A stretch of DNA of 20,298 nucleotides from a virus (IMGVR_UViG_3300035698_002605:1-20298); one strand, 5' to 3'; numbered from the stretch's first letter, positions 1-19,765 are shown. Notes: a model not told the origin generated them from the sequence alone. Numbers and translations: made by a program.

Positions 1-937
1 CATTATATCCATCTGCATCAAAGCCTCCATAGGTATAGCTTCCATCTGTTTCCGTGAATGTAAAATCATCCATATCCTGTTCATTGCTCAGTATCAACTC
101 ACCATGGGCCCCAAGGGTTCCATACTGAAAGGTATCCATATACGGAAATTCCATGTCTTCCCAGGCTTTTCTCATCTTCGGTAGTCGAACATCTATCCCA
201 TCCCACTTACCATAATATTCATCAACCTTATTTTCTTGTCCCCATTTTTTAAAAATGGATTCGTCCATGGGATCATGGGTGTAAATTCGATCCATATATA
301 ATTCATTACTGTCAAGTCTCCATAACAATGCTCGACCAGTGACTTCTTTTTGCTCATTGAACTTCACCAGGAGTTTGACTGCTTGGGGATTAAAGACATA
401 TATGTCAAGGTAATCCTGACATGATCCGTGCCTCATACAAGATTTATTTAAATTACCCTTACCCTTTGCATATGCATATGTCTTTTCATGGTAATACTTT
501 CGAATATTTTCACCTTTTACGACCTCAAACATAACTCCAGCACTCTTCATGTCGGTGCGGAAAGCATTTATATATTTTATAAATTCCTCAATCTGTTCAG
601 GCTTGAACTTCTTCATTAATTTTGTGACCAATTTTCCTATTTTGATCTGTTGTGTAATGACTTTTCCATCTGGCTTGGTATATTGAACAGAAAAAGCGTC
701 TTTGCGTTTTGGATCCAGGTCAATGACATCAACTGTCTTTACATCTTTGAGGAAATCAACCATGTTATCTCCTCCTGCAAGGTTGGAAACTATACTGTCT
801 TTTATTGCCTTTGCAATTGGATCCGCGGACAGTGTATTTATAAGCGTCATTAGATTACTCTTGACAAGAATTTCACTTTCCAGAAGTGCTTGCCAGTAAT
901 TACTATCAGTATATGTTAATTTATTAAAAAAAATCAT
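1..937 (-). CDS. Conserved phage protein of unknown function (3' end missing)
   Basis: An open frame of 312 codons runs from ATG at 937 off the left edge, so the C-terminus is not in the window. The frame is clean on the minus strand. The N-terminal 80 residues look helical. The middle holds the segment NLNKSCMRHGSCQDYLDIY followed by a hydrophobic strand and GRALLWRLDSNELYMDRIYT. This combination (two cysteines near a YLDIY strand, then a RALLW...YMDRIYT block) is one I associate with uncharacterised proteins of large T4-like phages, but I cannot name a function. It lies just beyond the terminator that follows queC, so it is probably its own transcription unit. A TATAAATTA box sits 16 nt before its ATG. 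Ribosome-binding sequence is weak. Confidence 0.7.
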   Translation of the reverse strand, partial: MIFFNKLTYTDSNYWQALLESEILVKSNLMTLINTLSADPIAKAIKDSIVSNLAGGDNMVDFLKDVKTVDVIDLDPKRKDAFSVQYTKPDGKVITQQIKIGKLVTKLMKKFKPEQIEEFIKYINAFRTDMKSAGVMFEVVKGENIRKYYHEKTYAYAKGKGNLNKSCMRHGSCQDYLDIYVFNPQAVKLLVKFNEQKEVTGRALLWRLDSNELYMDRIYTHDPMDESIFKKWGQENKVDEYYGKWDGIDVRLPKMRKAWEDMEFPYMDTFQYGTLGAHGELILSNEQDMDDFTFTETDGSYTYGGFDADGYN

Positions 938-3786: not shown

Positions 3787-4092
3787 TTATTTTATTTTGC
3801 CGTCGTTGAAATCTTCATAAAAACTGAGCATATTATCAACTTGAGATTTACTTTGTTCCACATATTTCATTATTTCATCTTCAGAAATTTCCACGATTGT
3901 ATCCGTATTCGAATCTCTTACTTCCATATATGTGCTTTGGTCTGATACGATACTATGGCCGTTTGTTAATTCAATTTCAATATTAGATTCGTCTGTGTCC
4001 ATACTACCATATATGCTCATGACCTGAATGGGCTTGGCTGCGAGTTTGAACGACTTTGTTACATTTGCATCCATCTTTTTGTTTGCTTTCAA
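3787..4092 (-). CDS. Hypothetical acidic protein, 101 aa, probably lost or shifted 5' leader
   Basis: The reading frame is open from just after position 4135. Its only initiation codons are TTG at 4092 and ATG at 4074, neither with a convincing ribosome-binding site. The product has no recognised family. It has a strand-rich middle (QVMSIYGSMDTDESNIEIEL) and an acidic helical C-terminus. Directly upstream, in the other frame, lies the short leader ORF 4118-4162, which ends only because the frame is off by one base. Joining leader and body by skipping one nucleotide near 4125-4135 gives a continuous protein of about 125 residues with the same MKNFKEFKMNEG start as the gene at 4621-4854. So the annotated start may be wrong and the gene may be frameshifted, recoded or misassembled. 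Confidence 0.55.
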   Translation of the reverse strand: MKANKKMDANVTKSFKLAAKPIQVMSIYGSMDTDESNIEIELTNGHSIVSDQSTYMEVRDSNTDTIVEISEDEIMKYVEQSKSQVDNMLSFYEDFNDGKIK

Positions 4093-4117: not shown

Positions 4118-4162
4118 TCAACGCTTACCTTCGTTCATTTTAAATTCTTTGAAATTTTTCAT
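4118..4162 (-). pseudogene. Orphan capsid-targeting-like leader ORF (14 codons)
   Basis: ATG at 4162, preceded by AAGAGAAAAATT, encodes MKNFKEFKMNEGKR and then TGA. The first 13 residues equal the N-terminus of the 4621-4854 protein. It lies within the 79-bp repeat shared with 4816-4894. The following frame continues as the 3787-4092 protein after a one-base shift, so this is best read as the true 5' end of that gene with a disruption, rather than as a free peptide. Confidence 0.55.
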
Positions 4163-4202
4163 AATTTTTCTCTTTTTATTTTTTAACGATTGTTTTTATC
4201 TT
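4124..4202 (-). repeat. 79-bp direct repeat, copy 1 (RBS plus leader)
   Basis: Matches 4816-4894 at 78 of 79 positions (the difference is C at 4187 versus T at 4879). The unit spans the last bases of the upstream gene, the intergenic RBS segment and the first 13 leader codons. The part of the unit that codes the endolysin C-terminus at copy 2 is non-coding at copy 1, so copy 2 is likely ancestral. Confidence 0.95.
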
Positions 4203-4618
4203 ATAAATTTATATTTCTTATTTCCAACTTTTATTGCATGACTCTTTTTTACTAAAGAACTCCATAGTTTTTCACCCAACTCAGATAATTCAATTACAGG
4301 CGTTCCATTATTTAATATTCTTTCGGGAGAAGGCCTTAATGGATTTTTCGTTTGTTTGACACTAAATTCATTCATTTTAATATAAAATTGAGTGCCAATA
4401 GACTGTTGCTGAAATTCTTCAGGTATTATAGAATTTCTGATGACCCATCCATCTTTATGTTCCCAAACTGTGAACATATCTGGGCGGGAGAGATGATTAT
4501 TATCTATATCCCAAGTAGAGAAATTACCTTCAGAAGATTTGAACTTAAATATTTTTTTAAAATAAAGCTCATTAATTTTTATTTTAGCTTCATTAAGTAT
4601 TTCACTAAAAAGTTTCAT
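4196..4618 (-). CDS. GNAT-like hypothetical protein with capsid-targeting-like N-terminus
   Basis: A 140-residue protein. The first 12 residues, MKLFSEILNEAK, resemble the T4 internal-protein leader and include LNE followed by Ala, which fits the T4 gp21 protease rule (Leu or Ile, any, Glu, then Ala/Gly/Ser). Residues about 55-135 have a pattern I associate with phage GNAT-type domains: a strand with VIRNSIIPEEF, then QQSIGTQFYIKMNEF, comparable to the acetyl-CoA-binding GxGxG/A loop and helix, and a C-terminal ELGEKLWSSLVKKSHAIKVG. The loop is poor in glycine (SIGTQ), so acetyltransferase activity is doubtful. It and the next gene lie exactly between the two copies of the 79-bp repeat. Confidence 0.6.
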   Translation of the reverse strand: MKLFSEILNEAKIKINELYFKKIFKFKSSEGNFSTWDIDNNHLSRPDMFTVWEHKDGWVIRNSIIPEEFQQQSIGTQFYIKMNEFSVKQTKNPLRPSPERILNNGTPVIELSELGEKLWSSLVKKSHAIKVGNKKYKFIR

Positions 4619-4620
4619 AA

Positions 4621-4854
4621 TTATTTCTTTATTTTTTCAAAATATTGACATGCACGTCTATCCAATTCTATTACTTCATAATTTGTAGATGTATACTCAT
4701 TTGGCTGTTTTGTACAATACATTGTAACATTTCGCATACTTGTTTTCTTTTTAAGATGATATTCACAATAATAACAATACTGATTCTTTAATGTTTTATC
4801 CGGAGCAAACTCATCCTTACCTTCGTTCATTTTAAATTCTTTGAAATTTTTCAT
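4621..4854 (-). CDS. Small four-cysteine (zinc-ribbon-like) protein with leader
   Basis: A 77-residue protein starting MKNFKEFKMNEGK, the same leader as the orphan at 4118-4162 and close to the one at 19227. After the leader it has Cys27-x2-Cys30 in YCYYCEYH, Cys47 and Cys69, a spacing compatible with one bound zinc. The rest is basic. No family recognised. It starts 13 nt after the endolysin stop with AAGAGAAAAATT as the ribosome-binding segment, which is inside the 79-bp repeat. By analogy with T4 internal proteins it may be packaged in the head, but the predicted cleavage site (MNE then Gly) differs from the strict Leu/Ile rule. Confidence 0.65.
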   Translation of the reverse strand: MKNFKEFKMNEGKDEFAPDKTLKNQYCYYCEYHLKKKTSMRNVTMYCTKQPNEYTSTNYEVIELDRRACQYFEKIKK

Positions 4855-4894
4855 AATTTTTCTCTTTTTATTTTTTAATGATTGTTTTTATCTT
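4816..4894 (-). repeat. 79-bp direct repeat, copy 2 (RBS plus leader)
   Basis: Partner of 4124-4202, offset 692 bp, one mismatch. Covers the end of the glucosaminidase gene, its downstream RBS and the first leader codons of the 77-residue gene. The interval between the copies holds exactly two genes (4196-4618 and 4621-4854). Confidence 0.95.
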
Positions 4895-5512
4895 GTCCGG
4901 GAGTTTTCGTTTGTTCATTACTGTTCCATATTTTCTGGAGACTGCGTAATTACCATTCAAATATTTGATCCATTTTTGCCGGGTTCCAATTTGACGTTCC
5001 TTCTTGCATGATTGGAATAACTTGTAATCTGCTATACTATATATCCATGACCTGTAACTCGCATGGCCGAGGTGTCTGTCCGGTAATGCACAGTTCCTAC
5101 GTCTCAACGGTTTCTTCATGCCAAATACATTGTTGCCGTTCTTGGCTAATCCTGAAGTTATACTCTCCGCAATACTTGAATTGTATGCCATATTAGGATA
5201 CAGAATTTCCATGTCCATTAACGCCTGGGCCATGTTTTCTCGACTCAGTGGTTTTGGATCACTTTCAAATTCATGTATGGTGGTGACAATGTCCTCCAAT
5301 AATATGGAATCCATGTCTTGGATGTTGTTGAAATATGTTAAAATTTCACTTCTCTCGTGATTATAAATTACCTGTTCCAAACTGTCTCGCTTGCAATTGC
5401 AATCTTTTACTTGCATATTACTTGTGGAACTTCCAAGGGCATATGACGCCCAACCCACGAGAATCAAGAGGGGGACCACCCCTACCATAAACAAGTTATT
5501 TTTCACTGCCAT
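4868..5512 (-). CDS. Membrane-anchored glucosaminidase-type endolysin
   Basis: The 214-residue protein has a hydrophobic N-terminal segment (residues 8-26, MVGVVPLLILVGWASYALG) that acts as signal-anchor, then a coiled linker, then a glucosaminidase (GH73, FlgJ-like) domain at about 85-195. The domain motifs are SSIAES (112-117) with the probable catalytic Glu116, NGNNVFGMKK (125-134), and HASYRSWIYSIADYKLFQ (150-167), the usual end of this fold. It would cut the beta-1,4 bond after N-acetylglucosamine in peptidoglycan. An anchored endolysin of this sort is typically exported and held in the membrane until lysis. The gene overlaps the upstream two-TM protein by 17 nt, which supports a lysis cassette. 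The catalytic loop is a little shorter than usual, so the Glu assignment is provisional. Confidence 0.75.
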   Translation of the reverse strand: MAVKNNLFMVGVVPLLILVGWASYALGSSTSNMQVKDCNCKRDSLEQVIYNHERSEILTYFNNIQDMDSILLEDIVTTIHEFESDPKPLSRENMAQALMDMEILYPNMAYNSSIAESITSGLAKNGNNVFGMKKPLRRRNCALPDRHLGHASYRSWIYSIADYKLFQSCKKERQIGTRQKWIKYLNGNYAVSRKYGTVMNKRKLPDKIKTIIKK

Positions 5513-6020
5513 TCAAATCCTTCATTTTGTTTTCATTTAATATATTTTTAGTAGCTTCTTTTCGCATCTGGATTCTCAGTTTCCTGGCCTCCGTACTTTC
5601 CTGAATCAGTGTATCTCTTGTCGTCTCACCTTTGATTTTACGTGTCAAAGTTTTCAGAGTTGCCTCGTAATTTCTATTTTTTGTGACAATTTTTTCTACA
5701 TCTGTAATATCCTTCTCCAAGTCCTTGACCTCTTTTTTAATGGCCTTGAAGTCCTTGTTCCACGATACGGATGTTGTCTTTGCATCCTTTTTTAATGTCT
5801 TGATCTGTTTCTGTATGGTTTCAATTGTCTTCTTATGACTCATTAAAGCCGCCATGGTTTTGATATGCTTTTCATCATGGTCCTGCACTTTATATAATAA
5901 ATACCATAAAAATGTGAATGGGGCTATCATTACGATACCCCCGCTCATATCAAAAACAGAATACCAAATGTATAAACTCAATCCAAAGAATAAGCCCCCA
6001 ATGATATTAAATAGTTTCAT
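5496..6020 (-). CDS. Two-TM coiled-coil protein, lysis-associated candidate
   Basis: A 174-residue protein with two N-terminal hydrophobic helices (about residues 4-22 and 28-45) and a long charged coiled-coil region (about 50-165, many Lys and Glu in heptad-like order). Its 3' end overlaps the start of the glucosaminidase gene, and its own ATG is 3 nt after the upstream stop with AGAGG as ribosome-binding site. Position next to an endolysin and two TM helices suggest a holin or a spanin-like role, but topology alone does not settle it. It could equally be a structural membrane protein. Confidence 0.6.
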   Translation of the reverse strand: MKLFNIIGGLFFGLSLYIWYSVFDMSGGIVMIAPFTFLWYLLYKVQDHDEKHIKTMAALMSHKKTIETIQKQIKTLKKDAKTTSVSWNKDFKAIKKEVKDLEKDITDVEKIVTKNRNYEATLKTLTRKIKGETTRDTLIQESTEARKLRIQMRKEATKNILNENKMKDLNGSEK

Positions 6021-6023
6021 TTA

Positions 6024-6500
6024 CTACCTCTGTACTGGTGTTATTTGTGATTCTTTTACATATTCCCCGATATCTTCGATTCCTAAGGAATAAAGAGAAT
6101 ATAGGGGTTCGCCTTTCAACGAAACTCCCCAATGTTCCTGCACAAGAAAAACTAATCGCTGGTGTAATCCCTGGACCATTACCTTTGAACCTTTTGGATA
6201 TTTGAAATTGGCTGTGCTGGCTGTTGCAACTTCTACGATCTTTTCAACTTCAACGATCTTTTCAACTTCAACAATTTTTTCAACTTCAACAATTTTTTCA
6301 ACTTCAACTATCTTTTCAACTTCTTTTTCCACTATTTTTTCTTGGATTTCGGGCTCAACACTTTTTAAATGTTCGATATATTTTTCCGTGTCATCGAAAC
6401 CTGAATCTTCTGCCATTTTATTCAACCCTTTTATGGTTTTATCCATTTTCGTATACTCTTTTACGATGTCCGCTTTGGTCATCTTATCCGTTTTTGCCAT
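6024..6500 (-). CDS. Coiled-coil protein with EKIVEV hexapeptide repeats
   Basis: A 158-residue protein. The N-terminal 55 residues are helical and charged. Residues about 61-91 are a near-perfect run of the hexapeptide EKIVEV (five units), encoded by the 18-bp tandem repeat at 6229-6318. The C-terminal 60 residues start FKYPKGSKVMV and look like a small beta domain with LVFLVQEHWGVSL. I do not recognise the family. VEKEVEKIVEVEK runs occur as linkers or stalks in many phage and bacterial surface proteins, so the repeat is probably a helical spacer whose length can vary. AAAAAGGAAC is a good ribosome-binding site. It directly precedes the two-TM protein. Confidence 0.65.
   Translation of the reverse strand: MAKTDKMTKADIVKEYTKMDKTIKGLNKMAEDSGFDDTEKYIEHLKSVEPEIQEKIVEKEVEKIVEVEKIVEVEKIVEVEKIVEVEKIVEVATASTANFKYPKGSKVMVQGLHQRLVFLVQEHWGVSLKGEPLYSLYSLGIEDIGEYVKESQITPVQR
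6229..6318 (-). repeat. 18-bp tandem repeat, five units
   Basis: Five consecutive units of the form ACTTCAACAATTTTTTCA (plus-strand reading), starting at 6229, 6247, 6265, 6283 and 6301. Units 3 and 4 are identical and the others differ at one to three positions. A decayed sixth unit follows. It codes the hexapeptide EKIVEV, so gain or loss of units keeps the frame. Confidence 0.95.
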
Positions 6501-6533
6501 TTTACTGTTCCTTTTTTTATTTTATTATTTAAA

Positions 6534-7010
6534 TTACTTTCCTGCTGCCAACATCGATTGAATTACTGCATCCAATATATCATTTAGCCATAAATTTATT
6601 TGGGGGTCATATTGATCAATCATATTCTCAAATTCATAATCCGGATCATCTCCGTCATATTCTTCATCCTCGCTTGGATCAATATCGGGCAATACTTCTT
6701 GATTCCATGCTGTATACAAATCTTGAAATGAATTTTTATCTCGTAAAAATTTCTTGAAGAGTTTTTCGTTCTTATTTACATACGCAAATTCAATGCGTTT
6801 ATCATTACCAAAACCATTATTATACCAATCATATGCAATTCCCGTTACACATCTAAATAATTCTCCCCATGGTTTATCTTTTGATGGACCAGTCGTAGGG
6901 ATATATTCATCTTCCATCCGAGTATACTCATCTTGATATGTTCCCTCGTCATCCCAATAACCATTTCCCTTAACTTTAATTTTGCCTTCGAAAATCTTAA
7001 AATGTTTCAT
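6534..7010 (-). CDS. Acidic hypothetical protein with capsid-targeting-like leader
   Basis: A 158-residue protein beginning MKHFKIFEGK. The IFE-Gly step fits the T4 gp21 protease cleavage rule, so the first nine residues may be a removable head-targeting leader. The remainder is very acidic, especially DPSEDEEYDGDDPDYEFENM near residues 111-130, and rich in Trp and Tyr. The C-terminus is a helix (INLWLNDILDAVIQSML). No family recognised. The 5' segment, AAAAAAAGGATAAATATGAAA, is shared with the next upstream gene (7030-8316), evidence that RBS and leader were copied together. Confidence 0.65.
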   Translation of the reverse strand: MKHFKIFEGKIKVKGNGYWDDEGTYQDEYTRMEDEYIPTTGPSKDKPWGELFRCVTGIAYDWYNNGFGNDKRIEFAYVNKNEKLFKKFLRDKNSFQDLYTAWNQEVLPDIDPSEDEEYDGDDPDYEFENMIDQYDPQINLWLNDILDAVIQSMLAAGK

Positions 7011-7039
7011 ATTTATCCTTTTTTTTTATTTAAAAATCG
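7004..7039 (-). repeat. RBS/leader direct repeat, copy 1
   Basis: On the minus strand it reads CGATTTTTAAAT, then an A9 run and GGATAAATATGAAA. The same segment with A8 is at 8310-8344. It joins the last codons of one gene (Asp-Phe-stop) to the ATG of the next. Length differs by one base in the A run. Confidence 0.85.
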
Positions 7040-8316
7040 TTGGGGTCTTGAATATATGAGTCAGGTTTAGGTTTCAAGGATTTCCATATAGCGTTATTAT
7101 GCCATTTTCCTCGTTTCCATGTGCCATCCAGCCAAGTTCCTGACATGAAGTCTCCATTATACCATATTCCATTTTCCCATGTGCCATTAAAAAATTCACC
7201 TCTATACCATTCCCCGTTTTTCCAGGTACCACCTAAGAAATCTCCACGAAGCCAGATACCATCTTCCCATACACCTCCTGTGAAAGATCCAGATTTGAAA
7301 ACTAATTTACCATCCTTTTTACCAAGAACAGCTTCGTCCAAATCACAATCTAATATCCAAGGGAAATCCTTTTTAAGTTGTGGAATTGTGAGTTTATCTT
7401 GTAATTTTTCAATTCCAAATTTTTGAAAGAAAACTCTATCAGGATGGTTTTTATCTTTCGGACGTGATTTTTTCAGTTGCCAATCACCATTCTGCCAGGT
7501 TCCATCTTTCCATTTACCACCCGCGAAGGTTCCATTCTCCCAGGTTCCATCTTCCCATTCACCATTCATGAAGGTTCCATTTTTCCAGGTTCCTTGGAGC
7601 CAGGTTCCATTTTCCCAGGTCCCATTTTCCCAGGTTCCTTTGATCCAAAGGCCAGATTTCCAGGTTCCATCTTTCCAGGTTCCATCCCGCCAGGTTCCAC
7701 GGTCAAAGATTCCATTTTCAAATGTGCCGCCTTCGAAGCTTGCATGTCCGAATGTTCCATTTTTAAAAGTCCCTCCAGCCCATGTATCTTCTTCAAAGGT
7801 TCCGTCTAACCAAATGCCATCTTCCCATACAACAGATGGCTCCCTGAACGTATATTCTGCATTAATTACAGCATCTTTTATTTTTGCTGCCAATATCCAG
7901 GGATAAAATTCTTGGAGATATTTAAGAGTGAATCCACCCTTTAATTCTTTTATGCCATACTTATTTAAATTTTCTTCTCCTATGAGTGGAACCCCTATTG
8001 GCCGAACCCAAGAAATTTTGAGTAATTTTCCTTTGGCCGTTGAAAAGATTTTTCTGTTGGTTTTTATGTCATTTAATGTTCGTATAGACTCATCTAAATT
8101 TACGAATTTATCCTCGGTATTTATATTATAACCTACTATAGATTCGTTTTTGATGATAAATACCAGTCCTGTATCAAATTTAGCCAGCATATAATCGTTA
8201 AAATTTGAATCAATTTCAACGGAACTTGCCCCTACCCATTTCTTAATTTCTTCTAATCTTTTAATAATAAATTTCGGGACTGTCTTATCACCCTCAAATA
8301 TTTTAAAATATTTCAT
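7030..8316 (-). CDS. Two-block pentapeptide-like (WxxGT) repeat protein with leader
   Basis: A 428-residue protein. It starts MKYFKIFEGD, with the same IFE-Gly leader pattern as the gene downstream. Residues 164-280 and 343-409 are long runs of a five-residue unit of the form (Trp/Phe)-x-x-Gly-Thr, for example GTWENGTWENGTW, about 23 and 13 units. Each run follows a related 32-residue module: YGIKELKGGFTLKYLQEFYP (120-139, then WIL) and FGIEKLQDKLTIPQLKKDFP (300-319, then WIL), so the gene has an internal duplication. The unit differs from the classic A(D/N)Lxx pentapeptide repeat but has the same period and should form a narrow beta-solenoid. It lies directly after the portal gene, which with the leader points to a head-associated protein. 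Function is unknown. Confidence 0.75.
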   Translation of the reverse strand: MKYFKIFEGDKTVPKFIIKRLEEIKKWVGASSVEIDSNFNDYMLAKFDTGLVFIIKNESIVGYNINTEDKFVNLDESIRTLNDIKTNRKIFSTAKGKLLKISWVRPIGVPLIGEENLNKYGIKELKGGFTLKYLQEFYPWILAAKIKDAVINAEYTFREPSVVWEDGIWLDGTFEEDTWAGGTFKNGTFGHASFEGGTFENGIFDRGTWRDGTWKDGTWKSGLWIKGTWENGTWENGTWLQGTWKNGTFMNGEWEDGTWENGTFAGGKWKDGTWQNGDWQLKKSRPKDKNHPDRVFFQKFGIEKLQDKLTIPQLKKDFPWILDCDLDEAVLGKKDGKLVFKSGSFTGGVWEDGIWLRGDFLGGTWKNGEWYRGEFFNGTWENGIWYNGDFMSGTWLDGTWKRGKWHNNAIWKSLKPKPDSYIQDPNDF

Positions 8317-8344
8317 ATTTATCCTTTTTTTTATTTAAAAATCG
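8310..8344 (-). repeat. RBS/leader direct repeat, copy 2
   Basis: Second copy of the segment at 7004-7039, with A8 instead of A9. It covers the last codons of the portal gene, its stop, the AAGGAT ribosome-binding site and the first codons of the solenoid-protein gene. Confidence 0.85.
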
Positions 8345-9897
8345 CCATCATCATCTCCACCAATTGGGTGGTCTTTTTTATATTTCAACATATCCGCCCA
8401 CTGATCATCTGTCAAGCTCAAATATTGTTTTGCCGCCCATTCACGTGGAATAATTGGATTTTCATCCGCATCATCCATTAAATCTCCCATTGAGCCAACA
8501 AAGTCAAGTTCTCTCTGTAGGAATTCCATTTCTTTCAACTTCTTGTAAATGTTGTCGTCCTGGAATTTTATACCCAGATTTGATCTAAATTGTTCGTCAT
8601 CTTTTAGAAAATCAAAGTCGATACAAAGCTGTAAGTATAATGGTTTCCATAATACTTCTTGGAAGGTTGATCTCAAACGCCCAATGAACTTACTGAATCG
8701 AATTTCTTCTCTGTCCAATCCGTCGGATCCAATCATCATTTGACCTCCGCCGCCTTCTCCGTCAAATCTACTTTCAGGAACTTTTGAATCTTTTTTCAAC
8801 TTGTCCCAGAAATATTTCAAACTGTCAGTGTCATTCAAATCCGGCCCCTCACCCGCAATGGTTTCAATTTCCGGCTGTTCTCCATTTTTACTTGGGAAGA
8901 GATAGTTTTTATAAAATTGCATTGAAGGTTTTCCATTGATCAATAGTTCTCCACTATCAAAATCAAGATATATGTCCTCTTTATATAATGCCATTAATTC
9001 ATTCAAACTCTCTTTTGCCTTTTGGGGTGACTTTGTTCCAATTGGAATTACCATTTTCATTCTAAATGTAGAATTCATTAGGTTCCAGATTAGTCGAGTG
9101 TTTTCCATCAAGCGAAGCAAATTTAATGATCGTACAAGGCGTTCCAGGTAGGACACGCGCATCATTATGTTACCCTTTGCATACGATATATATATGATTT
9201 GTGCGTCATACAGAGGGGGTCTGGCCAAATTAGGACTATCCTCATACTGCATCCATACTGATTTATATCCACCCTCAGTCTCTTCTTTTTGGGGTCTCAA
9301 ACTAATTGGGTCAAGTTCTTTGAAACCAATTATATTCTTCCATTCCTCATCATAAATAATTTCAAATGCAAGGAACCCATCAATCATTAATTGACGGAAA
9401 TATTGCCATGCAGATACATCATCATTAAAATGGAAATGATTATAAATTTCCTTGTATCTCTGTTGTGCCTTCTCAATTACCTCCTTTTGAGTTTCCTCTT
9501 TCAAATGTGAACCAAGATTACTCAGATCGGGATATGCAAAGAAGTTTTGATTGTCATATACAATTGCATCATCACAAATTGTATCCAAGATCCATTCAAT
9601 TTCGCCGTTCATACTGAATTTACGAAGGAATTCCCTTCTACTTTGATAGTCTTTATCAAAGAATGCTGTATATTTTTTTTGACCGATGTCTGCCATTGAA
9701 AGAGTATACGCCATATCCTCCGGCATTGGACCATCCATACTGAACTGAGCTTCGGTAGCACCTACAGCTCTTGACTGCTTGACCACGAGATCGTCATATT
9801 TAAAACCTAAATTACTTAGGTTTTTAATCATGGAGCCGACTTGATTTAAAAATCCGACCTCGCCGTTGGCATATTTATTTAGAAAACCAGTTGCCAT
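8335..9897 (-). CDS. 20: Portal vertex protein (T4 gp20-like)
   Basis: The portal is a dodecameric ring at one capsid vertex. It nucleates head assembly, is the channel for DNA packaging and later joins the tail. This protein has 520 residues against 524 for T4 gp20. Recognisable parts are the N-terminal wing with RREFLRKFSMNGEIEWILDT, the stem and crown region SYLERLVRSLNLLRLMENTR then LIWNLMNSTFRMKMVIPIGT, which is the most conserved block of gp20 proteins, and the core segment IETIAGEGPDLNDTDSLKYF. The C-terminal tail is acidic (GGDDDGDF). It has a strong AAAAAAAGGATAAT ribosome-binding site. That site lies inside the last codons and stop of the homing-endonuclease gene, 1 nt away, so its translation depends on sequence carried by the endonuclease end. 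Confidence 0.9.
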   Translation of the reverse strand: MATGFLNKYANGEVGFLNQVGSMIKNLSNLGFKYDDLVVKQSRAVGATEAQFSMDGPMPEDMAYTLSMADIGQKKYTAFFDKDYQSRREFLRKFSMNGEIEWILDTICDDAIVYDNQNFFAYPDLSNLGSHLKEETQKEVIEKAQQRYKEIYNHFHFNDDVSAWQYFRQLMIDGFLAFEIIYDEEWKNIIGFKELDPISLRPQKEETEGGYKSVWMQYEDSPNLARPPLYDAQIIYISYAKGNIMMRVSYLERLVRSLNLLRLMENTRLIWNLMNSTFRMKMVIPIGTKSPQKAKESLNELMALYKEDIYLDFDSGELLINGKPSMQFYKNYLFPSKNGEQPEIETIAGEGPDLNDTDSLKYFWDKLKKDSKVPESRFDGEGGGGQMMIGSDGLDREEIRFSKFIGRLRSTFQEVLWKPLYLQLCIDFDFLKDDEQFRSNLGIKFQDDNIYKKLKEMEFLQRELDFVGSMGDLMDDADENPIIPREWAAKQYLSLTDDQWADMLKYKKDHPIGGDDDGDF

Positions 9898-9898
9898 A

Positions 9899-11713
9899 TT
9901 ATCCTTTTTTTATATTTAATGAATATTTTGCGTTCCCACTATTATATATCTTATTGTATCCTCTGTCATGCATAATTTCTGTTTCTGTTTTGGACGAATC
10001 GAAACCTTCTTGTATTAATTTATGCTTCATGTATTTCTGTCTCGATTCCCGTATCCCATTGACCACCCAAGAATATCCGGGGTCTGTATTTCCAATAAAT
10101 TTAAATCCATTCGTTTCATATACATTGTCTCTCGGCATTGACCAATCCAAATCGGCATATGAAAAGATCTCTGTTGGTGTATATATCTTTATAAAATATT
10201 TCAAAAGTCGACTGAAGCCGCCAACCACCGTATGATTCAATATATTTACATACCTTAGGAGTTCCATTTTCTTGTTCCTGATACCAAAGGTGGCCAGGGT
10301 GACAAGTTTATCCTCGAAGTATAGTCCAATCTTATATTTTGAATTCACGTGGCCCTGTATGTGATTTTGATCCAAGAAAGCTCTTGAAGTCTTTGAGTCA
10401 ACTTCCGATATCACACATTTTCTGGCATATATGCGAGTTGACATACCAAGAACTGCCCGAATTCTACTCTTGACAATTTCATTTTTATAATTCCAGTCGT
10501 CTTCCCAGATATGAATTAAATTGACACCCTTTTCTATTGCAAGTATTTTCTTCTTATGATGATACATTTTTTCCTTATATGCATCTGAATGCCAATACAA
10601 TCCATTAAATTCAAATCCAATTTTCTTTGATGGAATATAAATATCAATTTCCTTACCATCGAGAATTGTTCGATTGCCTTGTTCAATCTCAACTCCCAAA
10701 GATTCTATAAATACTTTCAACTCTTCTTCTTTCCATGAAAGTCCTCCATCAATTGGATTACAATGCGGACAAATTTCAACATTGTATTTATTCATTCTCT
10801 GCCACAAGAAAAATTTATTCGCCGTAAATTCTTGGTTGCAGGTGGGGCATTGTAAGGTGAATTTCCTATTCTCATATGAAATGAATTTATATCCCCGACT
10901 TTCAAAATCCGGAACAATTTCTAATGACTTCTTTCGTTGAATCTTTTTCAAAACTTCTTTACCAATGTCGGATGAAAAATAATATTCATTTCCATATTTA
11001 GTAAATGTGGTCTTCTTTTGTTTCAATCTAAATTTTAATAGTGTAGACGGATGCTCTACGCCATGAATTTGAAGGTTATTTAATTTCATCGATTCTCGAT
11101 ATGATACAGATTGCAGGGGATAATCAACGCCATAATTATGTCGACTGGTCTCCCTCTTTTTTTCTTTGACGGATTCAACTGTATTTGGACTTTTCACTCC
11201 ATAATGATCCATGCTGGTTTGTATTTTTGACAGTTTGACCTCGTCTACTTGACTGGGGTTTTCAACACCATATTTCTTGACGCATGTTAATTTATATTGG
11301 TTTCGTATTGATCCCGACTGTAGAGGATGAGGAACTCCATAATTTTTTATGCATGTTGCCTCTTTTTTTGATTGTATGGTGGGAGATTGACTGACATTTT
11401 TTGACCCATATACTTTTATGCAAGTTGACTCTGTCATTTTGTTTTTACACGAAATAGAGCCGCAAGTTGCAATATAAATCTTGTTTTTTTCAATCTTTTT
11501 GTAGGTTTGTAAAGGTTTGTTACAGAATGGACAGAGGAGGAGTTGAAGATTATCATTCCATATATGATATGCCCGTTGATATAAATGGACATTTTTATAT
11601 GCATCATCTAAAAAAGAAGTGGCATCCCGAAGTTTGTCCGGATACCCCTTCACTTTTTTTAGAAAATCTCCAAAATCAACTGACATAAGTTTTATTTGTT
11701 CTATGTCTACCAT
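9899..11713 (-). CDS. Hef-like homing endonuclease with YG repeat array and PD-(D/E)xK-like domain
   Basis: Free-standing homing endonucleases cut an allele lacking them and spread by repair. Numbered from the in-frame ATG at 11725, the protein (608 aa) has a Cys4 knuckle at C65/C68/C88/C93, then seven repeats with Tyr-Gly at exact 23-residue spacing (Gly at 107, 130, 153, 176, 199, 222, 245, consensus like KYGVENPSQS). A second CPTC...CPHC knuckle (293-322) follows, then a Vsr/PD-(D/E)xK-like core with KEIDIYIPSKKIGFEFNGLY (358-377) and WHSD, IHIWEDDW. The repeat array probably reads DNA along the target. I set the start at ATG 11713 because AAGGATAAAATGG there matches the portal start, but 11725 is possible. 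It lies directly before gene 20, a classic site for such elements, and its 3' end supplies the portal RBS. Confidence 0.8.
   Translation of the reverse strand: MVDIEQIKLMSVDFGDFLKKVKGYPDKLRDATSFLDDAYKNVHLYQRAYHIWNDNLQLLLCPFCNKPLQTYKKIEKNKIYIATCGSISCKNKMTESTCIKVYGSKNVSQSPTIQSKKEATCIKNYGVPHPLQSGSIRNQYKLTCVKKYGVENPSQVDEVKLSKIQTSMDHYGVKSPNTVESVKEKKRETSRHNYGVDYPLQSVSYRESMKLNNLQIHGVEHPSTLLKFRLKQKKTTFTKYGNEYYFSSDIGKEVLKKIQRKKSLEIVPDFESRGYKFISYENRKFTLQCPTCNQEFTANKFFLWQRMNKYNVEICPHCNPIDGGLSWKEEELKVFIESLGVEIEQGNRTILDGKEIDIYIPSKKIGFEFNGLYWHSDAYKEKMYHHKKKILAIEKGVNLIHIWEDDWNYKNEIVKSRIRAVLGMSTRIYARKCVISEVDSKTSRAFLDQNHIQGHVNSKYKIGLYFEDKLVTLATFGIRNKKMELLRYVNILNHTVVGGFSRLLKYFIKIYTPTEIFSYADLDWSMPRDNVYETNGFKFIGNTDPGYSWVVNGIRESRQKYMKHKLIQEGFDSSKTETEIMHDRGYNKIYNSGNAKYSLNIKKG
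9908..9949 (-). repeat. 42-bp direct repeat, endonuclease 3' end copy
   Basis: Codes IYNSGNAKYSLNIK near the endonuclease C-terminus. Matches 11725-11766 at 38 of 42 positions. The similarity extends through the ribosome-binding site to the next ATG in both places. Confidence 0.85.
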
Positions 11714-11721
11714 TTTATCCT

Positions 11722-11766
11722 TCATTTTATCTTTAATGTATATTTTGTGTTCCCACTGTTATATAT
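11722..11766 (-). pseudogene. Relic of a homing-endonuclease C-terminus
   Basis: Between two stop codons this stretch reads IYNSGNTKYTLKIK then TGA, nearly the same as IYNSGNAKYSLNIK at the C-terminus of the adjacent endonuclease. Nothing upstream continues the frame. It is best explained as the remains of an earlier or related endonuclease copy, kept because it contains the ribosome-binding site for the following gene. A simple local duplication is the alternative. Confidence 0.6.
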
Positions 11767-11807: not shown

Positions 11808-12224
11808 TTAAAATAATCGTTTCGAAATTAATTTATTGGAACCTCTTGGACACCATTTTATAAAATCCCATGTAAGTGCATCATGACATATAAATTGTTC
11901 ATTTAGAATATCTTTGGCTTTGGGATGATATTTTACTGGTATTTCATTCAGTAGACGTTCGTGTGCCTCTTTTATGTTATCTTCCATTAGATCAACACCC
12001 CAAAGAGTTTGGATGGCTTGTAGAGGATTGTGGCCATGAGATAGTTTCCTTTTGAGGATTTCAAGGACTATGTTTCCATTACCTGCGGCAGGATCACAGA
12101 AGGTTTTATTTGGTTCCCATACAGACGGAGGTAACTTATCCAATATTTCATTTGTGAGCTCGGGGGGTGTGAATACTTCCGCCGTTATATGTTTCCTTTG
12201 GGATCTTATTTGGTCATTTGTCAT
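11808..12224 (-). CDS. Short adenine-specific methyltransferase-like protein (motif I half)
   Basis: 138 residues from ATG 12224 (a TTG at 12233 is also possible). It begins with the N6-adenine methylase signature TAEVFTPPELTNEILDKLP, then motif I, the SAM-binding CDPAAGNGNIVLEIL, and acidic GVDLMEDN, then a segment ending DALTWDFIKWCPRG. The catalytic motif IV (NPPY) is absent, so the protein cannot be a complete methylase. Phages often carry orphans of this sort. It corresponds to residues about 769-850 of the 1186-residue enzyme (IMTPWKLINEIFDKLP, CDPAVKSGIF) but is clearly diverged from it. The gene overlaps the end of the second TRD cassette by 11 nt, so both are probably translated from one message. 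It may pair with a cassette product, or be a decayed methylase. Downstream lies the endonuclease relic. Confidence 0.7.
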   Translation of the reverse strand: MTNDQIRSQRKHITAEVFTPPELTNEILDKLPPSVWEPNKTFCDPAAGNGNIVLEILKRKLSHGHNPLQAIQTLWGVDLMEDNIKEAHERLLNEIPVKYHPKAKDILNEQFICHDALTWDFIKWCPRGSNKLISKRLF

Positions 12225-13197
12225 TGTTTTCAATGTAATTTATTTCTTCTTCTGTTAGCTTAAAATGAGTGTATAGGTCTTCGTCTGTCCAGCTGCGAGT
12301 GAGGTCCATAAGTGGGACGTATTTGAAGACGGGGGATCTAAAAGTTCTACCGACCTGTTTTAATAATCTGAGTGTGGTTGCAAATTTTGTTGTTAAATAC
12401 ATTTTACAATTTATAGCTTCAATTTCTGTATCAAATGGAAAATAACATACAGATTCGGATGTTAAAAACTTGGGTGGAATGGTTTTTAATGCTGAAAATT
12501 CCTTCGCCTCGTTTCCTGTCCCCCCTTGTCCAAAAGATGTTTTCCATTTATCAAATTGAAATTTACCTATATTAATTTCATTTTTATTGACGTATTTTAC
12601 ATTATCGACCAATCCCGCTCCCATGACTGAATATTTTTGTTTCCCATTAATACATTCTAATTTATTTTTAAATATTGATGTTCCTATACTTGCTGGGTGT
12701 TTAAAAGATTTCTTCATCATTGTATATCCATCAATTTTGGATATTATATTTATCATTAAATCACTTTCAATGAAATTTGGATTTTCAATTGGATTTATAT
12801 TAAATATTTTATCATTCACTTCGTAATTGATGTCACCTATGTAATCTTTATCTGAAATAAAATAACAAACTCCTCCACTAACAGATACATCTGGGAAATG
12901 ATTACCCACATCACTCCCTGTTTTAATATATGAGATATGTTCATTTAAAAACTGATCTTTGAATTTAAAATATTTATCTGTTTTGTTCCAACTGAATGGA
13001 ATAATCATTGTGCATATATGTTTCGAAATGTCAAAGCCTAACCTCACAAATTTATCATATAAAATTTTACCGCAACTTCCATTTTTCATTGGAACTGTAT
13101 ACGGTGGATTCCCAACAACGACATCAAATTTTGGCATATCCTCTAATTTCCTCTCCAATATATTTATTTTTGAATCAATGTTCACAAATCCCGGCAA
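12214..13197 (-). CDS. Methyltransferase motif IV/TRD cassette 2
   Basis: 327 residues from TTG at 13197, without a clear ribosome-binding site. It begins LPGFVNIDSKINILERKLED and has motif IV VVVGNPPYTVP (27-36). It continues with the Eco57I-like core (LYDKFVRLGFDISKHICTMI, VSGGVCYFI), a variable central part that should be the target-recognition domain, and the common end PLMDLTRSWTDEDLYTHF. It is colinear with residues 852-1180 of the 1186-residue enzyme. Ends are nearly identical and the middle is diverged. It lacks the SAM-binding motif I, so it cannot methylate alone. Frame and repeats allow it to replace the TRD of the large protein by recombination. It overlaps cassette 1 by 16 nt. 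It may be a silent donor, or be made as a separate subunit. Confidence 0.75.
   Translation of the reverse strand: MPGFVNIDSKINILERKLEDMPKFDVVVGNPPYTVPMKNGSCGKILYDKFVRLGFDISKHICTMIIPFSWNKTDKYFKFKDQFLNEHISYIKTGSDVGNHFPDVSVSGGVCYFISDKDYIGDINYEVNDKIFNINPIENPNFIESDLMINIISKIDGYTMMKKSFKHPASIGTSIFKNKLECINGKQKYSVMGAGLVDNVKYVNKNEINIGKFQFDKWKTSFGQGGTGNEAKEFSALKTIPPKFLTSESVCYFPFDTEIEAINCKMYLTTKFATTLRLLKQVGRTFRSPVFKYVPLMDLTRSWTDEDLYTHFKLTEEEINYIENNDK
12231..12302 (-). repeat. TRD cassette 3' repeat, copy in cassette 2
   Basis: 72 bp coding the C-terminal SWTDEDLYTHFKLTEEEINY segment. Differs from the cassette 1 copy (13205-13276) at one position and more from the copy in the full-length gene. Confidence 0.9.
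13103..13197 (-). repeat. TRD cassette 5' repeat, copy in cassette 2
   Basis: 95 bp identical at every position to 15006-15100 inside the full-length gene. It runs from TTGCCGGG to the codons of the NPP catalytic motif. Confidence 0.97.
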
Positions 13198-14108
13198 CTC
13201 ATCTCAATGTAATTTATTTCTTCTTCTGTTAGATTAAAATGAGTGTATAGGTCTTCGTCTGTCCAGCTGCGAGTGAAATCTAATTCCGGCAATCTATTAA
13301 ATTCATTTACCAAAAATCTCCCATTATAATTAATTGAATTAAAATAAAATGAGCATAGTTTTGATTTAATAAAACATTTTACAGACTCAGCTTCTTGTTG
13401 TGAGCCACAAACCTTGAATAAATTATTTTGATTGATCCCACAATTTTTATCAATAATAATGAAATTAGGAGTATAAAACAACGATACGATCACTTTAATA
13501 TCTTTATAATGTGGAGGTTCTATATCCAAATTAATTATTGATTTTCCATTATAACACCTATATTTCCCATTTTCTACTTGGTGTTGTTTTCTATAGGCTC
13601 CATTGACTTTTTGAGAGTACAAAAAGTCAATGGAGCCTTTTCTACATAATAATTTATTTAATATGGAATTTCCAATTTTAAAATTATTATATAATGGTAT
13701 GAAATTAAAATTTAATTCCGACGGCTCATTGTTAATTATTGATTTCCCATTGTTTGGTATATTGTTTTTTAAAATGAAATAACAAAATGTTGACCCTATT
13801 TGTGGGAAATATTTTTTAACATCTGTATTAATTTCCGTCATGTAAGGTTTTAAATATGTTTTAAAAATATTTTTTGTATTACTGAACCATGTATTTGGGG
13901 TAATCAATGTTATAATGCCAGTGTCTTTTACAATTTTGGTACTCAATATTATAAATTGACTCCATAATGTATTATGGTTTCCCAAGGATCGCCCATTCTT
14001 TGTATTTTGATACGGCGGATTCCCAACAACTACATCAAATTTTGGCATATCTTTTAATTCCCTCTCCAATATATTTATTTTTGAATCCATGTTCACAAAT
14101 CCCGGCAA
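13182..14108 (-). CDS. Methyltransferase motif IV/TRD cassette 1
   Basis: 308 residues from TTG at 14108, which overlaps the end of the 1186-residue gene by 16 nt in another frame. No good ribosome-binding site precedes it. It starts LPGFVNMDSKINILERELKD, carries motif IV VVVGNPPYQNT (27-37), then a methylase core with GIITLITPNTWFSNTKNIFK and FCYFIL, then a variable half. It ends with DFTRSWTDEDLYTHFNLTEE and the same MSCRDL tail as the large protein, because the next cassette is joined at the same point. Between the repeats it is much less like the large enzyme than cassette 2 is, which suggests a different DNA target. Motif I is absent. A perfect 19-bp inverted repeat (13595-13638) lies in its middle. 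Probably a silent donor or a coupled subunit. Confidence 0.75.
   Translation of the reverse strand: MPGFVNMDSKINILERELKDMPKFDVVVGNPPYQNTKNGRSLGNHNTLWSQFIILSTKIVKDTGIITLITPNTWFSNTKNIFKTYLKPYMTEINTDVKKYFPQIGSTFCYFILKNNIPNNGKSIINNEPSELNFNFIPLYNNFKIGNSILNKLLCRKGSIDFLYSQKVNGAYRKQHQVENGKYRCYNGKSIINLDIEPPHYKDIKVIVSLFYTPNFIIIDKNCGINQNNLFKVCGSQQEAESVKCFIKSKLCSFYFNSINYNGRFLVNEFNRLPELDFTRSWTDEDLYTHFNLTEEEINYIEMSCRDL
13205..13276 (-). repeat. TRD cassette 3' repeat, copy in cassette 1
   Basis: 72 bp, one mismatch to 12231-12302. Followed directly by the next cassette's 5' repeat starting at TTGCCGGG. Confidence 0.9.
13595..13638 (-). repeat. Perfect 19-bp inverted repeat inside cassette 1
   Basis: Arms 13595-13613 (AGGCTCCATTGACTTTTTG) and 13620-13638 are exact reverse complements around a 6-nt loop AGAGTA. 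Within the gene it codes KGSIDFLYSQKVNGAYR, so it does not break the frame. As RNA it would be a very stable hairpin that could hinder translation. As DNA it resembles a recombinase or small hairpin-element site. No U tract of terminator length follows. Confidence 0.9.
14014..14108 (-). repeat. TRD cassette 5' repeat, copy in cassette 1
   Basis: 95 bp, six mismatches to the identical pair at 13103-13197 and 15006-15100. Same boundary at TTGCCGGG. Confidence 0.95.
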
Positions 14109-17100
14109 CTCATCTCAATGTAATTTATTTCTTCGGGTGTTAGATTAAAATGTTCGTAGAGGTCTTCGTCGGTCCAAGGGCGAGTGAGGTCCATAAGAGG
14201 AACATATTTGAACGCAAGTGACGGAAATGTATAACTATCTTGTGCCAAATACCTTAATAATGTTGAGAATTTGGTTGTTAAATACTGCTTACAATTAATC
14301 GCTTCCGTTTCCGTATCAAACGGAAAATACGAAATAGACATGGTTGTTATATTTAATGGTTTTATTAATTTTAGGGAGACTAAATATCGAGTTATATTTT
14401 TTTTGATGGAACCTATTGTTATTTCAGAGGCAGTTCCCCCTCTTGTGAACCCACATTTCCATTTATCCAAATCATATCTCGATAAGGTAACTTTATTTTT
14501 ATCAATATGCTTCAATTTTTTATTTAAGCCTGGTCCTTCGACGGGTATTGAATTTTTAAATTCAGAATCCGATAAATCTTTAAATATGTTAGATTTTATG
14601 TTTTGTGGATTTTTATACAACTCCGACATTTTAGGAGATTTAGACATTTTATCTAAAATATTTATAACTTCACTATCAATCGTTATAATATTATAATCAT
14701 TGCCAATTGATAAATTGCCGTTAATGTATAAATTTTTATTGACATTTACATTGGTTATATAATAACAAACTCCTGCTGATATATTAACACTATCGAAAAA
14801 AGACTGTTTATTTGTATAAACTTCTCTTAAACCATTTTTAATTAAATGATTTCTAAAATTTACCATTGAGCCTTGATTAAATAACCAACTTTGTGGAACA
14901 ACCATACATGAAATATTATTTGTTATATCTAATCCCAGATTCATAAATTTGTCATATAACTTTCCCGTTTTCATATTTTTGTTTTTCCCTCGTGGCGTGT
15001 TATAAGGTGGATTCCCAACAACGACATCAAATTTTGGCATATCCTCTAATTTCCTCTCCAATATATTTATTTTTGAATCAATGTTCACAAATCCCGGCAA
15101 ACATTTCTTTGTCAATAACTCGGCCTGTTTGCTGGTTGTATACCCATATAAACACTCCTTTGTTATATACTTATATATATCATTTTCACTTTTGTTTCCT
15201 CTATATGCTTCCATCAATCGGATTACAATTTCTACTAAAAATATACCACTTTTGACCGCAGGATCACAGAATGTTTTTTTCACATCCCATATATTTTTCG
15301 GTAATTTATCGAATATTTCATTTATTAATTTCCAGGGCGTCATGATTTCTTGATTGCTCGTTGGATTTAAATATCCCAATAATGATCTCATTTCTTTCAG
15401 GCATTCCAATATTCCCATGCCCTCCATTTTTGGCATGCTACTATAAAAACTTTCCAGGGCCTTGTTCAACCGATCTTTATTTATTAATCCACTTTTCAAT
15501 ATCTTCCCAAATTCCTCTGGTTCAATTCCAATTATAAGTTCAAATATTTTAATCTCCTCTGTACCCCCCAATTCTTGCCAATTTAAATATTCATCATCTG
15601 CAAGGAATAAAAATGTTGGTAAGTTCATTGTGAATCCCCTGACGGCATCCAATATATTTTTTATCTCTTTTTTATCTCTTACTGGAGTCTCGCCTCCTCC
15701 TCCGTCAGTCTTCTTCTTGTTTTTTCCTTTTTTGGTCCCACTGTCGGAAATTTCAACATCCCCCAATGCTCCATTTTTACCACCATTGGATTTCTTCAAA
15801 ATATCCAATATATCATCTTCTAAATTAAATTTCAGAGATAATATCCAATCACTTCCAAATCTTCTTATGTTGCGATTTGCATTTGCCCCAATCGATACAA
15901 TCTCTTTTAAAATATCTTCTGTACTCTTTTCAATTAATTGACCCCCGGAATATGACAAAACACTCATACAATCTAAAAATTCAGATAATCCATTTTTTAT
16001 CGAGTTGCCTTTTTTGGTGGCCTCCATTGCATAATCATAGGTCATTTTCAAGGCTCGTTGAGGATTAAAATCAAAAATATAACACTCTTTCTTCCCTACT
16101 TTTTTATTTGATGTTTTTACACGAAACGCAGTTTGCCAATAATCTTGAACACTTTCCACATCAGATAAGAAAAATACAGATCCCCACTCCGGAATACTTA
16201 CACCTGTATTCAATTTTCCACAGCTCAATGTAATTGTTCCAATTTTACCTTTATATTTTCCAATTTGATTGTCAACCCCGGATATTGCCCTCTTCACATT
16301 ACCAAGGGTATCTTTTCCCAGTCCATCATTTTTACCAGCGGCAATTATAATTTCATAGTCCTTAAAATAATTGTGATCGTTCAATACTTTTTTCATGGAG
16401 GTAATCTCTTTTACCCCACTCATGTACCAGAATGTATGTTTCAAGTATTTATTGTCAATATTAATGTTAAATGGACTTTTCATCCTCCTTGGTTCTGTAC
16501 TGGCCAAATTATTTAAAAACTTATCAACAGAACTTCTATTTATAAATTTATCGTTTTTCACTCCGAAAAATTTATTCATTGTTAGATATTCATCATCACT
16601 GTAATATTTTACATTTTCCCAAACTTCATCCGAAACTTTAAATGTATACAAATTAATTCTTGGTAGCCATCTATAAATGGAATTTCCAGTTTGCTTTTTG
16701 CGTTGCTCATCAATATATGACCAGCTGTAAATTTGTTCGTCTTCGTAATATCCGGAGGTTTTTAAATGAATTGGGGTTCCTGACAAATCCAGCCTTTTTT
16801 TGTAATTCAGTTTCCCTAAAAATTCTTGGGGACGGATGTTGCCAAATCCATAATGAACTTCATCAACAATTACAAAATCAAAATCAATTTGTAATAATTT
16901 TTCAAATTTCTCTTTTGGTTGGCCATTAATTTTGGTTCCTAAAATATCTTGAAATGATGAAAATATTACAACTTTTTCATTTTTTAATTTTTTTTGCTGT
17001 TCCTTGTCATTTAATTTTAATCCGTCCACAAAAAAATATTCGGGGAAATTTATATGATCCAGAAGTTCATTTTTCCATTCCTCTTTTATTGCAGGCTTGT

Positions 17101-18962: not shown

Positions 18963-19227
18963 TTATTCCCAAAAGTAATCAAATTGAGTTTGCCCATCTA
19001 ATTTTTTATCAATCAATTTTTTTAATTTGTCCTCATCCCTGTCATTTTTGACCGCAAATTCCATCGTAGATGAATCTTCATTTCTACCCCTGGTGCCGCC
19101 GGAATATATTGGATTAAAACTTACTAATAACTGTGTTGCCAAATTCCAATCATTTGTATCCTCAAACCATAATGATATTTGATACCCCCGCCTGTTCGTC
19201 TAATTTAAATTCTTTGAAGTTTTTCAT
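18963..19227 (-). pseudogene. Leader-bearing gene broken at a G5 run (frameshift)
   Basis: ATG at 19227 opens MKNFKEFKLDEQAG, a close match to the leader of the 4621-4854 protein. In frame it soon stops (GVSNIIMV, TGA). Skipping one G of the five at 19185-19189 restores a frame that runs on to TAA at 18963: YQISLWFEDTNDWNLATQLL, then an acidic, lysine-rich C-terminus ending TQFDYFWE. The joined product has 87 residues. The continuation has protein-like composition and fills the gap exactly to the next gene, so it is very likely the real body. Either a one-base insertion in a homopolymer, a sequencing or assembly error, or +1 recoding explains it. Confidence 0.7.
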
Positions 19228-19237
19228 ACTTGTTTAT

Positions 19238-19765
19238 TTATTTTATATTTCTTTTACAAAACTCTATCACTTTGTTCTTGAAATCTTTGAGTGTGCCATC
19301 ATTTTCAATAACATAGTCAAATTTATCGAAATTGTCCAATGAGGTTTCACTTGGATGCTGGTCATTTGTATCCAGGGAATCTCTATTTATACGGACCAAT
19401 ATGCCACCATGTTTTAAAATTTCCTCTGCTTCATTTTCAAACCTTACATCTGTCAATACCCATTTTGAATGTTCGTTAAAATCGCTCATCAATGCAATGA
19501 CCCATGCATCCTGATGTAAATTCGTTCGAATTGCTTCTGTTCCTAATTTTTACATGAACTCTCGAATTGTCATGCCCCAATCAACAAGGAAATCCGCATA
19601 GTGATTTCGATTATAAAAGTAGGTAATTGGTTGACCTGTTAATAATGCACCCATCCGCTTTAACTTGTCCGCAAATTTGTGGTTCTTGTACTCCGGACAG
19701 ATCTCCAATAAATATCTGTAGAACTGATCTTTTCCTGATTCCTTTTTTCCGGATATCCCTATCAA
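19238..19765 (-). pseudogene. 1: Deoxynucleoside monophosphate kinase (T4 gp1-like) with in-frame TAA
   Basis: This enzyme phosphorylates dNMPs, including modified ones, for viral DNA synthesis. The frame begins IGISGKKESGKDQFYRYLLE, a P-loop at residues 6-13, and goes through GMTIREFM to a TAA at 19550-19552. It then continues in the same frame as KLGTEAIRTNLHQDAWVIAL, WVLTDVRFENEAEEI, VRINRD, HPSETSLDNF and DYVIENDGTLKDF to the real stop at 19238. In the family the residue at the break is usually Gln (FMQKLGTEA), so CAA to TAA is the simplest change. Total 176 codons, shorter than T4 gp1. The only start is TTG at 19765, shortly after the preceding stop and in the same frame. Other genes here end in TAA, so general recoding of TAA is unlikely. 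The two halves may be made separately, the product lost, or the base miscalled. Confidence 0.8.

Follow-up and report, generated by a model that had tools for sequence, protein, structure and literature searches.

The internal proteins (IPs) of phage T4 have only a packaging leader in common; they are cut by gp21 and injected, and IPI to IPIII block type IV restriction enzymes (PMC3012670, PMC5694885, PMC12373910, PMC9391042). At least 10 IPs have been reported from T-even phages, again with the leader alone in common (PMC12373910, PMC3012670). The ejection (inner body) proteins of phiKZ and SPN3US are likewise packed with the DNA, cut after Glu by the prohead protease, and ejected, with propeptides that mostly exceed 100 residues (PMC5694885). 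The leaders described here, for which these same events would be inferred, are in contrast 8-19 residues long and recur across many genes; those of the locus itself span 8-11. A jumbo-phage survey from 2021 records, in its searched text, S77 proteases for two groups, and a 2026 review deals with injected proteins mainly for phiKZ; the passages found in either leave such leaders unmentioned. No description of an expanded leader set was found in the open-access papers searched. The principle is known from T4; the scale and the genome-private wording appear to be undescribed.

We consider it likely that the leaders presented below are T4-type capsid-targeting sequences (CTS), with docking, cleavage, packaging and injection, much expanded in huge phages. 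An earlier note on this DNA had drawn the analogy with T4 internal proteins, and it holds by comparison. As in T4 IPI, IPII and IPIII, a short Lys/aromatic leader with a (L/I)xE↓small cut (the arrow marks the predicted cleavage) precedes unrelated small bodies, in phages having a T4-type portal and an S77 protease (the latter seen in relatives), and one clustering finds both. Where T4 has four leader genes, clustering finds 6-124 per genome in the relatives, with a private wording for each phage; unlike the T4 IPs, the bodies include large enzymes, and the protease mostly comes as a long fusion whose scaffold-like tail is rich in cut sites.

The window and its leaders

The window, meaning the whole stretch of DNA analysed, is an IMG/VR fragment of 20,298 bases. 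Its features are as follows.

3787-4092, minus strand: ORF in another register from the 4162 leader, open upstream (frame read by eye)
4118-4162, minus strand: frame-broken leader copy MKNFKEFKMNEGKR followed by a stop; MKNFKEFKMNE↓GK, 14 codons to the stop
4124-4202, no strand: 79-nt direct repeat, copy 1, holding the preceding gene's end, the ribosome-binding region and the leader
4196-4618, minus strand: 140-aa protein, possibly GNAT-like; leader MKLFSEILNE↓AK, codons 4618-4589
4621-4854, minus strand: 77-aa Cys-containing protein; leader MKNFKEFKMNE↓GK, codons 4854-4822
4816-4894, no strand: 79-nt direct repeat, copy 2, 99% identical with one mismatch; starts the 4854 gene
6534-7010, minus strand: 158-aa acidic protein; leader MKHFKIFE↓GK, codons 7010-6987
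7030-8316, minus strand: 428-aa solenoid protein with GTWENGTW repeats; leader MKYFKIFE↓GD, codons 8316-8293
8335-9897, minus strand: T4-type portal protein (gp20), Pfam PF07230, E=2e-64
18963-19142, minus strand: 59-aa ORF in another register, an open frame beside the 19227 leader
19162-19227, minus strand: leader MKNFKEFKLDE↓QA next to a run of G, with a stop after 21 codons

The portal gene gives the locus its T4-type head context; Gp23 matches are found in the relatives, the capsid gene lying outside the window, and a family search of the 20-kb fragment found no Peptidase_S77 (gp21-type) protease. Among public phages the nearest portal records include that of LR756500, a huge uncultured phage of 462 kb (49% identity), and the others come from huge uncultured phages of 634-735 kb and from Prevotella Lak phages. 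Upstream of the portal gene, a 608-aa protein (9899-11725, minus strand), possibly a homing-type nuclease, has about 10 relatives in LR756500 at 31-46% identity and further ones in Lak-C1 and PTm1. Positions 11808-17653 hold helicase/methylase-like genes with internal repeats, including a 192-nt stretch around FDVVVGNPPY that occurs three times, and look like a duplicated restriction- or methyltransferase-type array. The protein family at 1-850 (minus strand) is present as five tandem copies in the closest relative (G001, 17854-25098) and has many relatives in huge phages, several with leader-like N-termini.

When the sequence was re-read, all six leaders listed in the earlier note were present on the minus strand at the coordinates it gave. 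Their consensus is MK-x-F-x-x-(I/F)...(I/L/M)xE↓(G/A/Q). Four head intact genes (8316, 7010, 4854 and 4618), whereas those at 4162 and 19227 are frame-broken. The cut rule first proposed, (Leu/Ile)-x-Glu, describes LNE↓A at 4618 and IFE↓G at both 7010 and 8316, but 4854 and 4162 have Met at P3; the 19227 leader has Gln at P1'. The ORF at 3787-4092 is the probable body once joined to the 4162 leader, and that at 18963-19142 is probably the body of the 19227 gene. Close to the latter, a kinase-like gene (19238-19765) is also broken, into ORFs 19550-19765 and 19238-19492, so the frame breaks may be either assembly errors or real decay. An HD protein at 18379 (MKYFKKITLYKNG) begins in a leader-like way without a cut motif, and was dropped from the leader set.

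The bodies were said to be unrelated, and indeed the four intact genes have no common family match in Pfam or PHROG: in the window, one kind of leader stands before unrelated bodies. The solenoid foreseen for the 428-aa protein is borne out by its repeat, and similar proteins to this part occur in other huge phages and in Pseudomonas phage PspYZU05; its leader matches those of other phages with p=0.0075. The acidic protein could be placed in a phage family, to which no function is assigned. The 77-aa protein has no family match (Pfam, PHROG) and no match in phage records. The 140-aa protein weakly matches PHROG_2547 (E=5e-4), a family without assigned function, and has no Pfam match, no relative in IMG/VR and no match in phage records. 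The labels "zinc-ribbon-like" and "GNAT-like" that these two had received are still guesses, as neither has a Pfam match and only the second has even a weak PHROG one.

The window genes were compared with a reference set of 312 leaders from eight whole genomes or long contigs, gathered without using the window. Only the six named genes, among 22 in the window, have both a leader match and a cut motif; in the background, 0.8% of 4173 non-leader genes have both at equal score. The binomial p is about 2e-8 for 6/22, or 2e-5 for 4/20 with repeated copies collapsed, values that are somewhat favourable since the match score of 6 is the lowest of the six window leaders and was picked after they had been seen. 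The shared leaders of the window are real, and they extend beyond it.

Leaders across whole genomes

In whole genomes, a leader was defined by residues 2-10 that resemble the same segment in three or more genes of unrelated body, without a signal-peptide-like stretch. The method has a weak side: gene calls came from a simple script and gene starts from a simple rule, and the cluster threshold, a BLOSUM62 sum of 22 over the nine residues, was a manual choice, made ahead of the T4 and crAss001 controls. Blind clustering gave the following leaders, unrelated body families and genome-specific wordings.

Sphingomonas phage PAU: 18 leaders, 18 families; MKTLTQLYE↓A
Chryseobacterium phage MA9V-2: 6 leaders, 6 families; MKTFTxFINE↓S
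Lak-C1: 24 leaders, 23 families; MNKxIKxLxE↓S
G005 (IMG/VR contig, 238 kb): 15 leaders, 11 families; MKNLKTFEQFLNE↓A
LR756500: 41 leaders, 34 families; MKYIKEYEEFLxE↓A
LR756501: 80 leaders, 69 families; MIKKFxxFE↓S
LR745206: 124 leaders, 116 families; two wordings, MKYLKxYKIFE↓S and MKHLKKFNE↓S

Random internal Met positions used as a control gave 0-1 leaders per genome. In T4 the clustering yields exactly IPI, IPII, IPIII and gp61.1, and in crAss001 it yields no leader (this genome also has no S77 match). PTm1, HTVC008M and RM378 have an S77 match and no leader cluster, which indicates that the expanded form belongs to some T4-type phages and not to all. A strict regular expression run on 37 contigs around related portals had found little, as if the leader were a local feature; clustering overturned this, since it finds the wording of each phage, and the low yield did not mean that the leader was local. 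Many of the leader-rich huge T4-type phages are known from metagenomes alone.

T4 gp61.1 (NC_000866, 18966-19130), a hypothetical protein of 54 aa, begins MKTFKEFIKED, an IP-type leader, and may be a further internal protein of the IP kind. In PAU, gp142 (MKSLTNLYE↓N) and gp154 (MKTISKLYE↓A) were annotated "internal capsid protein" by the depositors, and both have the PAU leader that is common to 16 further PAU genes.

Cut motif, protease and capsid proteins

Between residues 4 and 22, a hydrophobic-x-Glu↓small motif is found in 59-100% of leader proteins, versus 10-18% of the others. The residue after the first [LIVMF]xE is mostly A, S, N, G or D in most genomes. The strict motif is missing from 27-41% of the clustered leaders in G005, Lak-C1, LR745206, LR756501 and LR756500. 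At residues 31-49, leader proteins do not consistently exceed the rest in this respect.

Each of the seven leader-rich genomes contains a Peptidase_S77 match. Five exceed the family cut-off (LR756500, G005, PAU, Lak-C1 and MA9V-2), and those of LR745206 and LR756501 are weaker and fall below it. In most of these genomes the S77 protein is a long fusion (584-1173 aa) with a scaffold-like tail, containing 4-13 [LI]xE↓[AS] sites where about 1-2 are expected. Such site-rich fusions are what one would expect of a core that its own protease destroys. The Gp23-type capsid proteins of leader-rich phages also have [LIMF]xE↓small near the N-terminus, often in a similar position (WMSxYAxxHxxNE↓N). T4 gp23 is cut at LTE↓A65, likewise near the N-terminus, so the relatives' proteases probably share the T4 cut rule.

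These results bear on a different reading, in which the leaders address proteins elsewhere, to the membrane, the replication compartment or the early vesicle, with the Glu-small motif being incidental. Jumbo phages do own other addressing systems, and the analysis here covers sequence. Even so, we find this very unlikely: the same clustering recovers the proven packaging leaders of T4, N-termini resembling signal peptides were excluded from the leader set, and enrichment of the motif is limited to residues up to 22, the motif being also found in capsid proteins and protease-scaffold fusions of the same phages.

Copied DNA or selected peptide

The two copies of the 79-nt repeat flank a two-gene segment, whose gain or loss by recombination they would permit. 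At the start of the 19227 gene, a 55-nt stretch is 76% identical to the copies at 4130 and 4822, and the starts of the 7010 and 8316 genes are 84% identical over 51 nt, ribosome-binding region included. A search of IMG/VR did not find the exact DNA of the 4162/4854 leader. One could imagine that the N-termini have no function as protein and are just copied gene-start cassettes, or reflect a codon choice that favours initiation: the ribosome-binding region lies within both the 79-nt repeat and the 51-nt similarity, and codon identity is raised in the leaders of PAU, MA9V-2, G005 and T4. We regard this as most improbable. In LR745206, LR756501 and LR756500, which are the largest three of the leader-rich genomes translated with table 11, residues are kept while synonymous codons vary, with observed codon identities of 0.60, 0.59 and 0.66 against 0.57, 0.56 and 0.76 predicted from usage, respectively. 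Codons there are about as diverse as expected or more so, which indicates that selection acts on the peptide. In addition, the P1 Glu and the small P1' residue play no part in initiation, and one homologous body bears different labels in different phages. The raised identity in PAU, MA9V-2, G005 and T4 shows that some of the sharing there is recent copying; copying of the gene-start cassette is the likely route of recent spread in these four and in the window.

Different leaders on homologous bodies

The body on which the leader is swapped is that of the 158-aa protein. Its family has invariant W19, P38, R53, D61, NNG 64-66 and N69, and an alignment query finds relatives at 74 IMG/VR loci; a single-sequence search of IMG/VR with the protein found no relative, nor did a PDB profile search with the family. 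Most homologs have no label and start directly at the body in an MSNTYW-like manner (MSNTYWNGNGTYQ and others). Three kinds of phage label it. In the window the label is MKHFKIFE↓G. In L266/L267 it is MRARFINE↓A, next to genes starting with MRAKKVNE↓G, MRAITINE↓D and MIAKKVYE↓S, and the L266 contig (260 kb) has a T4-type portal. In L268/L270 it is MKETAQLKNLME↓S, with MKELEQLKNLFE↓S on a neighbour. Three T4-type phages (G015-G017) have the body without a leader, so labelling is optional. Other exchanges are seen: a protein labelled MKNLKTFEHFLNE↓A in G005 has a match in Lak-C1 that begins MIKEIKKLLE↓S, and a ligase resembling T4 RnlA is labelled MKLFKYIEFINE↓N in LR745206 and unlabelled in T4 and LR756501. 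As far as comparison of sequences goes, then, unrelated bodies share the leader, its cut motif is conserved, it is a trait of the protein, and it is swapped on one homologous body.

Proposed mechanism

We infer packaging and cleavage from the likeness to T4, and injection even more so. While the head is being assembled, the first 8-11 residues would let each protein dock in the prohead's scaffold core. Next, the S77 (gp21-type) prohead protease would cut after Glu in hydrophobic-x-Glu↓small and remove the leader. The body would stay enclosed in the head with the packed DNA and pass with it into the next host. The leader has its own version in each phage, and unrelated genes would become cargo by acquiring the local version. 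In the huge relatives, the set has grown to dozens of genes, or to more than 100.

It is quite possible, and we suggest it tentatively, that huge T4-type phages inject dozens to more than 100 different pre-made proteins under a private label rewritten in each lineage, any gene being convertible into cargo by gaining the local label. On this view, privacy of the labels may also stop phages that infect the same cell from packaging one another's cargo. A label that can be read from sequence would class up to about 13% of LR745206 genes as packed in the virion and delivered to the host. Most genes of huge phages lack a known function, and the labels make their candidate injected proteins directly testable; the leader pattern predicts cut positions for proteomics on a cultured relative. 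The leader could also serve in each phage as a ready-made tag with which to load foreign proteins, a use that the T4 CTS already has.

The cargo

When 280 leader-bearing bodies were scanned with Pfam, most were assigned no family. The matches include RNA ligase, 2'-5' RNA ligase, NUDIX, methyltransferases, RNase_T, PPK2, GNAT, HD, LRR, polynucleotide 3'-phosphatase and one Acb1-like (anti-CBASS) match. The last was not pinned to one protein, and the candidate gave no match when scanned singly. PADLOC, run on 122 leader bodies, found no more than scattered matches. The Acb1-like match, RNA ligase, NUDIX and methyltransferases are candidate first-strike counter-defence proteins. Genes with T4 homologs are depleted in leaders (4/174, odds ratio 0.27, p=0.003), which is what one would expect were the core replication genes and the tail genes excluded from the cargo.

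The nature and position of these genes also help to weigh another explanation, in which the leaders serve for packaging or for docking to the scaffold, and the tagged proteins work only inside the head (core, scaffold or structural) and are not injected. PAU gp152, annotated as scaffolding, has the PAU leader, and several leader genes lie near portal, protease and capsid genes. However, leader genes are scattered across whole genomes, T4 IPs are injected (PMC12373910), and the enzyme bodies (RNA ligase, NUDIX, methyltransferase, nuclease, PPK2, acetyltransferase, HD and Acb1-like) look host-facing and not structural. We therefore find it unlikely that the proteins remain in the head, and retain delivery to the host as the preferred reading.

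Another short peptide was seen in LR756501 (735 kb). DPYGEE-x-W-(D/E) occurs there 109 times, spread over about 83-92 unrelated proteins and with varied codons, and 41 of these sites lie within 8 residues of the C-terminus (loci L172-L209, for example the gene ends at 554211-555297). A search of papers turned up nothing relevant to it. It is absent from the other genomes examined and multicopy on several IMG/VR contigs (L346-L385). Within LR756501 it is enriched among leader-bearing proteins, being found in 27/80 of them versus 65/962.
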